A DNA stretch of 24,978 nucleotides, from NCBI GenBank assembly GCA_030668025.1, contig DAOUUT010000014.1, positions 1-24,978 of the forward strand, in the 5' to 3' direction. The translations under genes were made by a program, and so were the position numbers. This document shows positions 5,172 through 12,474 of the stretch, piece after piece. The DNA is from Promethearchaeota archaeon. GTDB taxonomy: Archaea > Asgardarchaeota > Lokiarchaeia > Sigynarchaeales > SOKP01. Each line of letters opens with the position of its first letter. Positions within the stretch are counted from its first letter, which is position 1. The notes under the pieces are model-generated. The model was not told where the DNA came from, did not search any database, and was given only the letters and a program-made list of their open reading frames with translations.

Positions 5172-5378
5172 TTAATTATCTCGGAAAATTCTTGACTTTT
5201 CTTTATCTTGTTCCTCTTTGCAGTGAGGACAAATCCAGGTGGTATCGTTCTTTTTTACAGAATTTAAACAAACATCGCAAACAGTGATGTTGCATATGCA
5301 ATAATAGCATTTATCTAATATATTCTCGCAATTCTTCCCACATACGTAACAATTAGGAGGGTTTTTGATTTTGGACAT
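5172..5378 (-). CDS. Small cross-brace (RING-like) zinc protein
   Basis: A 68-residue protein with ten cysteines in the order C10-x2-C13, C17, C24-x2-C27-x-C29, C34-x2-C37, then W48 and C50-x2-C53. Four CxxC pairs, the second and third close together and the last after a loop with WICPHCKEE, resemble a RING/FYVE/B-box-like cross-brace or a double zinc ribbon binding two zinc ions. Asgard archaea have ubiquitin-type systems with small RING proteins, so an E3-like or adaptor role is conceivable but unproven: there is no E1, E2 or ubiquitin gene here. The tail is charged (DKEKSRIFRDN). It is divergent from the 5470 gene across a 91-bp A+T-rich spacer. Confidence 0.6.
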   Translation of the reverse strand: MSKIKNPPNCYVCGKNCENILDKCYYCICNITVCDVCLNSVKKNDTTWICPHCKEEQDKEKSRIFRDN

Positions 5379-5469: not shown

Positions 5470-5655
5470 ATGGATAAACTAAAATCGCGAGTTCAATTGC
5501 TTTCGCTTTTTATAATTTTTTTTATATATAAAGCTATAGCCGGTATTGTTGAGAGTAATTATTCTGAATTCGTTCTATGGTTTATGTTTTCTATTGTTTA
5601 TGCAATATCTCTTACGATCTTATATTTTGCTCTTAAAAAAAGGCAATTACAGTAG
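5470..5655 (+). CDS. Small two-helix membrane protein
   Basis: A 61-residue hypothetical protein. Residues 9-26 (LLSLFIIFFIYKAIAGIV) and 36-54 (WFMFSIVYAISLTILYFAL) form two membrane helices joined by a short loop containing ESNYSEF. The N-terminus (MDKLKSR) and C-terminus (KKRQLQ) are basic, so both ends should face the cytoplasm. No family is recognised. It starts at an ATG and lies in a cluster of very small genes. Confidence 0.55.
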   Translation: MDKLKSRVQLLSLFIIFFIYKAIAGIVESNYSEFVLWFMFSIVYAISLTILYFALKKRQLQ

Positions 5656-5713: not shown

Positions 5714-5977
5714 TCATTTCTTTGATTTTTTTTTAAAAATATCCGGAATTAAACCATCAAGGTTGTAAATACTATCACTAATATCGACTTTAACTTTCAT
5801 GTCTTGCATAGCTTTTAATGTTTCTCCTAACATTTTAGTGAAACTCTCGCTCATTTCTTTAATAGTATCGGAAGTCAATTGAAGGGATTCTCGAATAGCA
5901 AGATTTGTCTCGTGTATCTCTGAAGTCATTTTTTCCATGCTTTTCCTCATTTCTAAAATCTCATCTTTTAATCCCAT
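5714..5977 (-). CDS. Short coiled-coil protein
   Basis: An 87-residue protein, strongly helical and amphipathic from residue 3 to about 65 (heptad-like spacing in EILEMRKSMEKMTSEIHETN through SFTKMLGETLKAMQDM). It then has a short acidic/hydrophobic segment (DISDSIYNLDGLIPDIF) and a basic tail (KKKSKK). The composition suggests a homo-oligomeric coiled coil. I prefer the ATG at 5975-5977 over the TTG two codons upstream (5981-5983). No family is recognised. It is convergent with the 5470 gene and divergent from the first candidate selenoprotein gene. Confidence 0.5.
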   Translation of the reverse strand: MGLKDEILEMRKSMEKMTSEIHETNLAIRESLQLTSDTIKEMSESFTKMLGETLKAMQDMKVKVDISDSIYNLDGLIPDIFKKKSKK

Positions 5978-6155
5978 TATCAATCCAAATTTTAACTGAT
6001 TTTATTTTTTTTTAATAGTTATGTAAATGAATGAAGTACTTAAATTTTTTACTTAAATGGAAAATTAATCTCGTTTAATTATTAAATATAACAAATACTC
6101 TTTTAAGATTGCTTAATTATATTCAAAATAACTAATAAACTAAAAATTAATCAAA

Positions 6156-6287
6156 ATGTCTGAATGGAAATACAAAATTAAAAAACCCGTAGCCGAAGAA
6201 GCTTCTTGTACGGGCTGAGGCATCGTTGACGGAATAATTTCGTGTATAAGTAATCTAAAAAAAAAACGCAAAGAAAAGAAAAGCTAA
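6156..6287 (+). CDS. Candidate mini-selenoprotein A (in-frame TGA read as Sec21)
   Basis: A 43-codon reading frame, ATG at 6156 to TAA at 6285-6287, interrupted once by TGA at 6216-6218 (codon 21). Read as selenocysteine (U), the protein is MSEWKYKIKKPVAEEA, then SCTGUGIVDGIISCISN, then a Lys/Arg-rich tail. C18-x2-U21 is a thioredoxin-like CxxU redox motif, and a short apolar stretch (residues 22-34) precedes the tail. Established: Lokiarchaeota insert Sec at UGA and place eukaryote-like SECIS elements after their genes. Seen: a structured RNA element starts 79 nt after the UGA, and a second gene of the same design follows 228 nt downstream. Family and function are unknown. Alternatives are a 20-codon peptide ending at the TGA, or a non-coding transcript. 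The Sec machinery is not in this window. Confidence 0.55.
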
Positions 6288-6296
6288 AAATAAACT

Positions 6297-6360
6297 AAAT
6301 CTCGAGGAATAAAGCAAAAACGATAGGTTTTATTCCTTAGTTCCGCAAGAACTAGAGATT
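6297..6360 (+). promoter_or_regulatory. Candidate SECIS-like 3' RNA element A
   Basis: By hand folding: outer stem AATCTC (6298-6303) with GAGATT (6355-6360); hairpin 1 GGAATAAAGC (6306-6315) with GTTTTATTCC (6327-6336, one G-U), loop ending in CGATAG; hairpin 2 TAGTTC (6338-6343) with GAACTA (6349-6354), loop CGCAA. It begins 9 nt after the TAA of mini-gene A. The element at 6657-6723 aligns with it end to end, sharing AAATCTC, GATAGG, AGTTC, GCAAGAACT and GAGAT, while hairpin 1 differs in sequence but still pairs. The fold is branched rather than the single hairpin of textbook SECIS elements, so the SECIS assignment rests on position and pairing conservation. Confidence 0.55.
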
Positions 6361-6466
6361 AACTCTTACATTTTTACATAATATCGATCTTTTTATTATT
6401 ATAAAAAATCACAAAATTGCCCAGTAACTTTATTTTTTATAAACCTCACCCTTAATACTCCTGATT

Positions 6467-6475
6467 TTTATAAAT
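6467..6475 (+). promoter_or_regulatory. TATA-like box of mini-gene B
   Basis: TTTATAAAT at 6467-6475 lies about 40 bases upstream of the ATG at 6515, suitable for an archaeal promoter with a short leader. It suggests mini-gene B can be transcribed separately from A. Confidence 0.4.
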
Positions 6476-6493
6476 TTAATAATAAATTTAATA
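6470..6493 (+). repeat. Perfect tandem 12-bp repeat
   Basis: ATAAATTTAATA occurs twice back to back (6470-6481 and 6482-6493) and overlaps the TATA-like box of mini-gene B. It may be a duplicated factor-binding site or simple slippage in A+T-rich DNA. Confidence 0.5.
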
Positions 6494-6514
6494 ATTAAAT
6501 AGTGAGAAAAACAC

Positions 6515-6694
6515 ATGTCGGAAGAAGATGAATTTGATTTTGGATTTGATGATAATTGCTACGAAACTAGTTGATCGATACTTACTATGTGGTACTTAAG
6601 AGCTTTAAAAACGCAAAAGACTAAAGAAAAAATGGAAAAAAAAAAAAATAAAATAAAAATCTCTAAGATTAAGTCATTAAATGATAGGATTTAA
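6515..6694 (+). CDS. Candidate mini-selenoprotein B (in-frame TGA read as Sec20)
   Basis: A 59-codon frame, ATG at 6515 to TAA at 6692-6694, interrupted once by TGA at 6572-6574 (codon 20). Read as Sec (U), it starts with an acidic segment (MSEEDEFDFGFDD), then NCYETSUSILTMWYLRAL, then a long Lys-rich tail. C15-x4-U20 places a Cys just before Sec, as in mini-gene A (C-x2-U), and both share the order Cys, Sec, apolar stretch, Lys-rich tail. The sequences are otherwise different, so this is shared design rather than clear homology. The 3' RNA element starts about 84 nt after the UGA and overlaps the end of the frame. The C-terminal boundary is uncertain because the last codons lie inside that element. 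No known selenoprotein family is recognised. Confidence 0.5.
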
Positions 6695-6723
6695 TCAATA
6701 AGTTCTATGCAAGAACTTGAGAT
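6657..6723 (+). promoter_or_regulatory. Candidate SECIS-like 3' RNA element B
   Basis: Same plan as element A: outer stem ATCTC (6659-6663) with GAGAT (6719-6723); hairpin 1 GATTAAGTC (6667-6675) with GATTTAATC (6688-6696), loop ending in TGATAG; hairpin 2 AAGTTCT (6700-6706) with AGAACTT (6712-6718), loop ATGCA. Compared with A, nearly every pair of hairpin 1 has changed on both sides, which supports the fold. A competing fold exists in B only: TAGGATTT with AAGTTCTA directly after an ATGA, which looks more like a eukaryotic SECIS but lacks the matching 3' GA and is not reproduced in A. A T-run follows at about 6737-6742. Confidence 0.55.
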
Positions 6724-11476: not shown

Positions 11477-11878
11477 TTAATTAGTTTCTTTTTTTTTTCT
11501 CTCAAGTAAATTTGTTATATAGGTTATAATTTCGTTTCCAGAAATTGCTTTAACTAAATAACCATCCGCACCGAGATCTTTACCTTTTTTAATATCTTTA
11601 AAAAAATTTTTCACAGTAAAAAGAACTACAAGGACATGGTTAAATTTTTCGTTGGATTTAATGGATTTTAGTACCTCGTAACCACTAAGGTTTGGCATCA
11701 TAATATCTAAAAGTACTAGTGCGATATCCTCATATTTTTCTTCCATGATCTGTAACGCTTCACTTCCATTACTACACGTAATAGTTTCGTAATTCTCAAG
11801 TTGTAAAAACTTCTCTGTTAAATTAACGATATCTTCTTCGTCGTCGACTATGAGAATCTTTTTTGCTACTACTGACAT
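11477..11878 (-). CDS. Single-domain response regulator 1 (CheY-like)
   Basis: A 133-residue receiver domain with no output domain. Seen: acidic pair D12/D13 (IVDDEED), phospho-acceptor D58 (LVLLDIMMP), switch Thr88 (LFTVK) and Lys110 (YLVKAIS). The normally conserved cis-proline after the lysine is Ala111 (VKAI instead of the usual KPF), which is unusual. It is a close paralogue of the receiver at 12094-12474, with the same length and shared motifs such as CSNG, GADGY and SGNE. No histidine kinase or effector is near. A TGTTAG/CTAACA inverted repeat (11895-11918) lies just upstream of its start. It probably acts by protein contact. Confidence 0.88.
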   Translation of the reverse strand: MSVVAKKILIVDDEEDIVNLTEKFLQLENYETITCSNGSEALQIMEEKYEDIALVLLDIMMPNLSGYEVLKSIKSNEKFNHVLVVLFTVKNFFKDIKKGKDLGADGYLVKAISGNEIITYITNLLERKKKETN

Positions 11879-12093: not shown

Positions 12094-12474
12094 CTATCTA
12101 TTTAAAACTTTTTTTATGTAATCACGAAGTTCATTACCCGAAAAAGGTTTGGTAATGTATCCATCTGCGCCTAATTCTTTACCTTTTTCAATATCTTCCT
12201 TAAAACTCTTAACTGTGAAAAGAACAACTCGAATATCCTTATAAGTATCCTTCGATCTTATGTTTCGGAGCACCTCAAATCCTGAGATGCCAGGCATCAT
12301 AACGTCTAAAAGTATTAGGACGATCTCCTCGTGTTTTTCTTCTAGACTTTTTAAGCATTCTTTTCCATTGCTACAAGTAAGTGTCTTAAAACTATCAAGT
12401 TGTACAAATCTTTTAGTAAGATTGACGATATCTGGCTCATCGTCACAAATTAGGATGGTATTTTTTTCTGACAT
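12094..12474 (-). CDS. Single-domain response regulator 2 (CheY-like)
   Basis: A 126-residue receiver domain with the complete conserved set: D11/D12 (ICDDEPD), phospho-acceptor D57 (LILLDVMMP), Thr87 (LFTVK), Lys109-Pro110 (YITKPFSG). It has no DNA-binding or enzymatic output domain. It is paralogous to the receiver at 11477-11878, from which it is separated by 215 bp of A+T-rich DNA in the same orientation, pointing to a local duplication. Its canonical active site contrasts with the altered K-P position in the other copy. Its kinase is elsewhere. It is divergent from the Bud23-like gene across about 150 bp. Confidence 0.9.
   Translation of the reverse strand: MSEKNTILICDDEPDIVNLTKRFVQLDSFKTLTCSNGKECLKSLEEKHEEIVLILLDVMMPGISGFEVLRNIRSKDTYKDIRVVLFTVKSFKEDIEKGKELGADGYITKPFSGNELRDYIKKVLNR

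Follow-up and report, generated by a model that had tools for sequence, protein, structure and literature searches.

What is encoded by two adjacent, very short reading frames that each contain an in-frame TGA and are each followed by the same kind of structured RNA? They lie in a 24,978-nt stretch of DNA from a Promethearchaeota archaeon (contig DAOUUT010000014.1, assembly GCA_030668025.1), analysed here at its full length and referred to as the window. The first frame, mini1 (6156..6287, plus strand), would specify a peptide of 43 residues, MSEWKYKIKKPVAEEASCTGUGIVDGIISCISNLKKKRKEKKS, with Sec (U) as residue 21 at the TGA at 6216..6218, motif CTGUG and a Lys/Arg-rich tail. The second, mini2 (6515..6694, plus strand), would specify 59 residues, MSEEDEFDFGFDDNCYETSUSILTMWYLRALKTQKTKEKMEKKKNKIKISKIKSLNDRI, with Sec as residue 20 at the TGA at 6572..6574, motif CYETSUS, an acidic N terminus and a basic tail. 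Both frames and their in-frame TGA codons are present where a first-pass annotation of the sequence had placed them, and the CxxU (mini1) and CxxxxU (mini2) motifs that it named are found in the translations. The reading favoured here, with a probability of roughly nine in ten, is that the locus encodes two tiny selenoproteins by recoding of UGA, in conjunction with a SECIS-like element that lacks the published core; the UGA would be read as Sec under the guidance of a conserved three-way-junction RNA at a near-fixed distance.

The proposed SECIS of mini1, element 1 (6299..6359, plus strand), consists of P1 (6299-6303/6355-6359), P2 (6306-6315/6327-6336, loop AAAAACGAUAG) and P3 (6338-6343/6349-6354, loop CGCAA). 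That of mini2, element 2 (6659..6723, plus strand), has its P1 at 6659-6663/6719-6723, a long P2 with the loop AUUAAAUGAUAG and a P3 formed by AAGUUC/GAACUU; the mini2 frame overlaps its start. The two elements align with each other over their full length, and both fold as a closed three-way junction in which P1 surrounds the hairpins P2 and P3 (folding z-scores −4.23 and −2.78). They begin 80 nt (mini1) and 84 nt (mini2) after the UGA, in agreement with the earlier claim of like structures 79 and 84 nt past it, the former value being obtained with one extra base assigned to the first stem. Their scores with the covariance model R1, 75.4 and 75.2 bits, are those of two of the model's own 59 training sequences; the third-best match within the window reaches only 22.3 bits. 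Across the whole window, Rfam at its gathering threshold yielded no match and ARAGORN no tRNA.

The annotation had considered this shared design hard to explain by chance. That judgement gains from recurrence of the locus in dozens of genomes and loses where the open frames are taken by themselves: with stop codons at 7.1% over six frames, the chance that 22 codons remain open after a TGA is about 20%, so that open frames alone are no evidence. The evidence supporting the proposed recoding is instead comparative, in that TGA, frame and putative element recur together across these genomes. Relatives were sought by scanning a genome contig collection for a stringent DNA pattern describing the element. 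It matched one contig, from Ca. Lokiarchaeota isolate HM4_B22 (G001), where the two frames with their TGAs, the two elements and the surrounding gene order are all as in the window. This genome formed the centre of searches over its class (83 genomes, taken to be Lokiarchaeia) and its phylum (227 genomes, taken to be Asgard archaea). A single-sequence search with mini1 (E <= 0.01) found 42 of the 83 class genomes, and 42 of its 43 matches cross the site with one TGA, the other being a 17-residue piece upstream of the site. With a profile (E < 1e-6), mini1 was found in 46 of the 227 phylum genomes, every one of them within the class and every one with TGA inside the match, some matches extending over the final TAA. 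Mini2 is present in 27 of the 227, at 29 places, all inside the class; TGA interrupts 28 of these, and the other has no stop. Six weak mini1 profile matches (E 0.002-0.008) and three weak mini2 matches (E 2.5e-4 to 0.009) are excluded from these counts. Both genes occur together in 26 genomes, in all of which the two share a strand and the match to mini2 begins 166-401 nt 3′ of that to mini1, and mini1 occurs without mini2 in 20. The sole mini2-only genome, G048, has an extra element at a contig edge, where mini1 would be cut off; because mini2 is otherwise found only with mini1, it is the probable partner of mini1. One genome, G044 (C1:189300-192200; L093, L248), has three mini2 copies and five elements overall. 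A scan of IMG/VR with the DNA pattern gave three matches, none backed by R1, which were taken as chance.

At the site itself, TGA occupies 46 of 46 aligned mini1 and 29 of 30 aligned mini2 sequences, the remaining one having Cys, and TAA or TAG occurs in none of the 76; these numbers include the window and exclude G071, whose mini1 was omitted from the alignments as its frame is broken 5′ of the UGA in the assembly. UGA is not reassigned throughout: it ends four of the 26 main ORFs of the window, and among 275 open frames of at least 250 codons in the window and 45 further loci the terminal stop is TAA in 210, TAG in 35 and TGA in 30, counts that are not independent since the loci are largely syntenic. 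The annotation had made its case depend on conservation that continues past the TGA in homologues, and this is what was found. In the proposed frame, dN/dS past the UGA is 0.23 for mini1 (Fisher p 7.6e-12) and 0.21 for mini2 (p 1.8e-8), as computed from disjoint, hand-picked close pairs (15 and 12, respectively), whereas the ratios of the +1 and +2 frames, 0.80-1.70, are not significant; 5′ of the UGA the values are 0.34 and 0.11. Purifying selection thus acts at the protein level on both sides of the UGA, and 3′ of it is specific to the frame.

Whether homologues keep U or replace it with Cys had likewise been raised, and for mini2 the answer is that both occur. The mini2 of G038 reads DDDCYYTSCSLINMW, with Cys instead of the UGA, and of 44 database proteins that match the mini2 profile five have Cys at the site, 37 have Trp and two lack the region. 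For mini1 the database matches have Trp in 17 of 17, and a Cys form was found in none of these 17 and none of the 46 genomic sequences; Cys homologues, a criterion for selenoproteins, were therefore found for mini2 only. Because the genomic homologues have TGA at this position, the Trp is read as a gene caller's rendering of UGA under another code, and with Trp in 54 of 61 database relatives the case illustrates how gene calling distorts very short UGA genes. One of the five database Cys copies is 93% identical to that of G038. Grouped by nearest-neighbour identity, and not from a tree, the mini2 Cys copies are spread over at least three places: G038 with P0006 and P0038; P0023 and P0032, near window-like UGA forms; and P0030. 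In P0030, P0032 and P0038, Ile also takes the place of the Thr that stands two positions ahead of the site (xISC for xTSU).

Two genomes provide natural experiments on the relation between codon and element. The Cys-bearing mini2 of G038 is the only one of 29 mini2 without an element, and the adjacent, UGA-bearing mini1 retains its own. In G031, mini1 and mini2 lie close together with a single element, 3′ of mini2, whose distance is 83 nt to the UGA of mini2 and ~250 nt to that of mini1; this one element would serve both genes, as a SECIS in a 3′ UTR could. Both cases match what is predicted for a SECIS that acts from the 3′ part of the message.

The alignment underlying R1 comprises 59 elements from mini1 and mini2, over which 91.4% of the cells of the P1/P2/P3 structure pair and 16 of 21 pairs have double-sided changes. 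None of 500 shuffles is as high on any of five measures, and shifting the partners by one column reduces pairing to 47-57%. RNAalifold independently recovers P2 and P3, with double changes in 15 of 16 pairs, and gives no prediction of P1 on this alignment; P1 varies less than the other two helices, and in some rows its 3′ strand is one base out of register. Three adenines of the P2 loop are invariant in all 59 elements, and GCAA accompanies P3 in 36 by a simple first-match count. R1 returns 75 strong matches (57.8-80.2 bits) in 47 of the 83 class genomes, hereafter the carriers, the next best match scoring 37.1 bits; 57 of the 75 (37 genomes) are training sequences recovered by construction and 18 are new to the model. 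Among the latter are the elements of the divergent mini1 genes of G015, G016, G017 and G019, genes that came to light through the element after escaping the single-sequence search. Directly 3′ of mini1 lie 45 of the strong matches and directly 3′ of mini2 another 28, the two others being one in G048 that sits at a contig end and one in G044 with N masking over 100 of the 300 bases upstream. Phylum-wide, there is no strong match outside the class (best 36.5 bits, in G124). Weaker matches of 30.8-37.1 bits (G041:C69, G033:C230, G024 and G073:C31, the last only 64 nt from the contig start) have no mini frame upstream and were rejected.

The gap between UGA and element, with elements looked for at least 40 nt past the UGA, is 78-92 nt (mean 83.6, n=59). 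One feature counts against the proposed role. Of the 29 UGA-bearing mini2 genes, 20 have a frame that stops short of the element or right at it and three have one reaching no more than 8 nt into it, but in the other six the overlap is longer, 15 nt in four and 36 nt in two, the window (6659-6694) and G053.

Is this junction a SECIS? Asgard SECIS elements have been described with an [A/G]UGA_[G/A]A core and an upper stem of 7-15 bp, covering 85.1% of 1439 selenoprotein genes, and the motif has been proposed as the archetype of the eukaryotic core (PMC11227280); the accessible part of a 2022 review gives Lokiarchaeal SECIS one apical loop (PMC9499178). At SelD loci of the class, the order P1, NTGA, P2, GA, P3, P1 is found in 16 of 30; with an identical descriptor and score, a single locus of 30 fits on the opposite strand, and none or one in each of five shuffles that preserve base composition only. 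Here P3 (in L150, L155, L156, L161 and others) shows paired changes, frequently has a GCAA cap and abuts the closing stem, so that the SelD SECIS resembles a three-way junction and has two apical loops, as opposed to the one in the review. The mini elements have much in common with it: both lie 3′ of a UGA gene, both have P1, a long P2 with an A-rich loop and a P3 whose 3′ strand abuts P1, and in both a GCAA end is frequent. They differ at the base of P2, provided that the two bases correspond as their positions relative to the loop suggest. There the SelD SECIS has [A/G]UGA...GA, followed in the listed cases by 3-5 unpaired nucleotides before P3, whereas in the mini elements columns 9-41, 10-40 and 11-39 form Watson-Crick pairs that covary. 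R1 does not detect the SelD SECIS in 15 SelD loci (best 17.1 bits, E 0.17, away from the SECIS), and the identification of the mini elements as putative SECIS is therefore drawn from layout and context, not from sequence homology.

The published cores are indeed missing. With no mismatch allowed, AUGA_GA is found in 0 of 59 mini elements and in 10 of 16 SelD elements by the same test. One mismatch admits 4 of 59, compared with 0.34 (GA) or 1.26 (GA or AA) in shuffles preserving base composition only, and all four are mini2 elements with AUGA inside the P2 loop, where such a fold breaks P2. Nor does a strict AUGA_GA stem occur within 327 nt past the UGA of any of 30 mini1 genes (shuffles, of the same kind, 0.3). 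The euryarchaeal GAA_A core is found in 1 of 59 (1.36 in shuffles, likewise of base composition only), and in 0 of 59 when three consecutive C/G-G/C pairs are included. Set beside the published eSECIS-like class (PMC11227280), the mini elements have the unpaired adenines in the apical loop and the position 3′ of a UGA gene (73 of 75 strong matches) and lack the [A/G]UGA_[G/A]A core; because of that absence they are filed here as SECIS-like, outside that class.

The absence of both archaeal cores is what gives some weight to the alternative that the selenoproteins are real and the junction is something else, for example a selenium-responsive stability element, the true SECIS being another structure. 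We regard this as unlikely. Against it stand the near-fixed distance of the junction from the UGA, its near-exclusive occurrence at UGA genes, its absence 3′ of the Cys copy, the layout it shares with the SelD SECIS, and the lack of a strict AUGA_GA stem in the 327 nt past the UGA of the 30 mini1 genes. Very probably, then, mini1 and mini2 are two new micro-selenoprotein families and the element is a core-less SECIS variant. We lean slightly towards the wider proposal of a second, kink-turn-free class of SECIS, in which Sec insertion would be guided by the junction shape, an AAA...UAG P2 loop and an often GCAA-capped P3, with the mini pair forming a redox system.

The annotation had also asked for Sec machinery in the source genome; here it was sought in relatives, and most genomes that carry the element possess it. 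SepSecS is over the cut-off in 77 of the 83 class genomes and 46 of the 47 carriers (the exception being G069), and SelD in 73 of 83 and 44 of 47 (exceptions G015, G039 and G049), each of the listed over-cut-off SelD having one in-frame TGA. For tRNA-Sec, Rfam gives 34 of 83 and 16 of 47, counting only matches over the cut-off since a control gave signal above or below it in 14 of 14 genomes. This model under-detects here and misses copies at its cut-off: around SepSecS in six genomes it reported no tRNA-Sec, and the G038 copy, used as a DNA query, found tRNA-Sec, whole or partial, in 10 of 10 chosen carriers, adjoining SepSecS on the same contig in nine. By inspection, the anticodon is TCA and the T-arm carries additional bases (seen in L256 of G038 and in L259-L262), in line with the 31-nt T-arm intron that the accessible part of the 2022 review gives for Lokiarchaeal tRNA-Sec (PMC9499178).

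This machinery bears on a selenium-free explanation, in which a near-cognate tRNA, such as that for Trp, would read through the UGA in a programmed manner stimulated by the RNA structure. A frame conserved on both sides of the UGA and a structured RNA 3′ of it would be expected in that case too, and the inserted residue has here been deduced from sequence. However, the one genomic replacement of UGA is Cys (G038), as is that in the five database proteins, while Trp in the 37 others is most simply the work of a gene caller translating TGA. The G038 Cys copy is without an element, the sole element of G031 lies as far as ~250 nt 3′ of the mini1 UGA and the carriers possess the Sec machinery, all of which makes read-through of this kind quite improbable. 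That the UGA is a true stop, ending a 19-20-residue leader peptide ahead of a regulatory RNA (riboswitch or attenuator), is scarcely credible: riboswitches often contain three-way junctions and Rfam has no match in the window, but selection past the UGA is purifying and frame-specific, TAA and TAG never take its place in the 76 aligned sequences, the Cys copies are open straight through the site and the usual gene 3′ of the pair lies on the opposite strand.

If mini1 and mini2 are selenoproteins, what might they do? Conserved in mini1 are an MSEWK start (in most sequences), (C)xGU, an Asp at the fourth position past Sec, a hydrophobic helix and a tail rich in Lys/Arg; in G042, G045 and G049 the Cys partner gives way to N or K. 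In mini2 (window numbering), an acidic start, D8, D12, C15, Y16, Sec20 and W26 are conserved and followed by a basic helix. AlphaFold models, for which Cys stood in for Sec in the query and Trp occupied the site in most aligned rows, give a helix over residues 20-42 of mini1 (mean pLDDT >90 over residues 21-40) and one helix over 13-58 of mini2; the pTM values, 0.39 and 0.56, are uninformative on assembly. The window proteins (P0001 and P0002) match no Pfam or NCBIfam family, and a sequence comparison of the family profiles with the PDB matched no solved structure, so the original remark that they belong to no recognized selenoprotein family stands. In each peptide, an α-helix with a basic tail would have a Cys/Sec pair at its start or close to it.

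The gene neighbourhood of the pair is the same in most genomes, typically with an opposite-strand gene 3′ of it, and, being conserved as a whole, is uninformative on role; a functional link to the adjacent UDP-sugar dehydrogenase was rejected on the same ground. Three small genes without a Pfam match at 5172-5378, 5470-5655 and 5714-5983 of the window (by eye, one Cys-rich, one membrane-like and one coiled-coil-like) accompany the locus in many class genomes, and two receiver-domain-like genes, again recognized by eye, lie on the minus strand at 11477-11878 and 12094-12474. In the separate lineage of G015, G016, G017 and G019, mini1 is found outside the common locus. Within ~5 kb on either side of it in G019 (L244), Pfam identifies OsmC-like, 1-Cys peroxiredoxin, desulfoferrodoxin, rubrerythrin and TusA proteins, and G015 (L241) has near-identical OsmC-like, desulfoferrodoxin-like and rubrerythrin-like proteins, with no peroxiredoxin within 4.5 kb. 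DnaJ-like and DnaK-like genes were also recognized by eye in the G019 region. These oxidative-stress genes around mini1 in one lineage are the only functional hint, and would fit with a role as thiol/selenol redox peptides. The annotation had suggested redox peptides or selenium carriers; the former is the most likely, if unproven, role of mini1 and mini2.

Neither such families nor a core-less SECIS appear in the titles and abstract openings of the papers listed by full-text searches (20 of 168 in one of them), which covered a body of literature to which subscription papers and preprints mostly do not belong. The 2024 survey of Asgard archaea, according to its methods, used known families (PMC11227280) and would therefore miss such de novo families. 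If the present reading is true, the two families would add to the 11 archaeal selenoprotein families given in the accessible part of a 2026 review (PMC13188914). Under the wider proposal, mini1 and mini2 would together make up a selenium redox system of two peptides, without a known counterpart, the AUGA_GA quartet would be dispensable in Asgard archaea, and the reader of the SECIS would recognize some feature other than the kink-turn. Lokiarchaea are archaeal relatives of eukaryotic cells, and the kink-turn would thus be separated from SECIS function in a group seen as a bridge to the eukaryotic Sec system; with the two separated, what reads the archaeal SECIS becomes directly testable.

Among known systems, the VhuU of methanogens, a hydrogenase fragment, is a selenopeptide of very small size in which Cys and Sec form a pair; mini1 and mini2 differ in that no hydrogenase is found among the scanned proteins of their neighbours. 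SELENOW-like proteins have CxxU near the start of a helix, as does mini1, which, unlike them, has no thioredoxin fold and is modelled as essentially one helix. The 11 archaeal families of the 2026 review include, in its accessible part, SelD, FrhA/VhuU, HdrA, FrhD/VhuD, Prx-like, AhpF-N-like, DsbA-like and FdhA, and none of the families named there resembles mini1 or mini2 (PMC13188914); FmdB is a further archaeal selenoprotein (PMC11227280). Mini1 and mini2 stand apart from the known archaeal selenoproteins as short helical peptides without a Pfam or NCBIfam match, yet the mini genes would have in common with them a Sec encoded by UGA and, in mini2, the existence of Cys forms.
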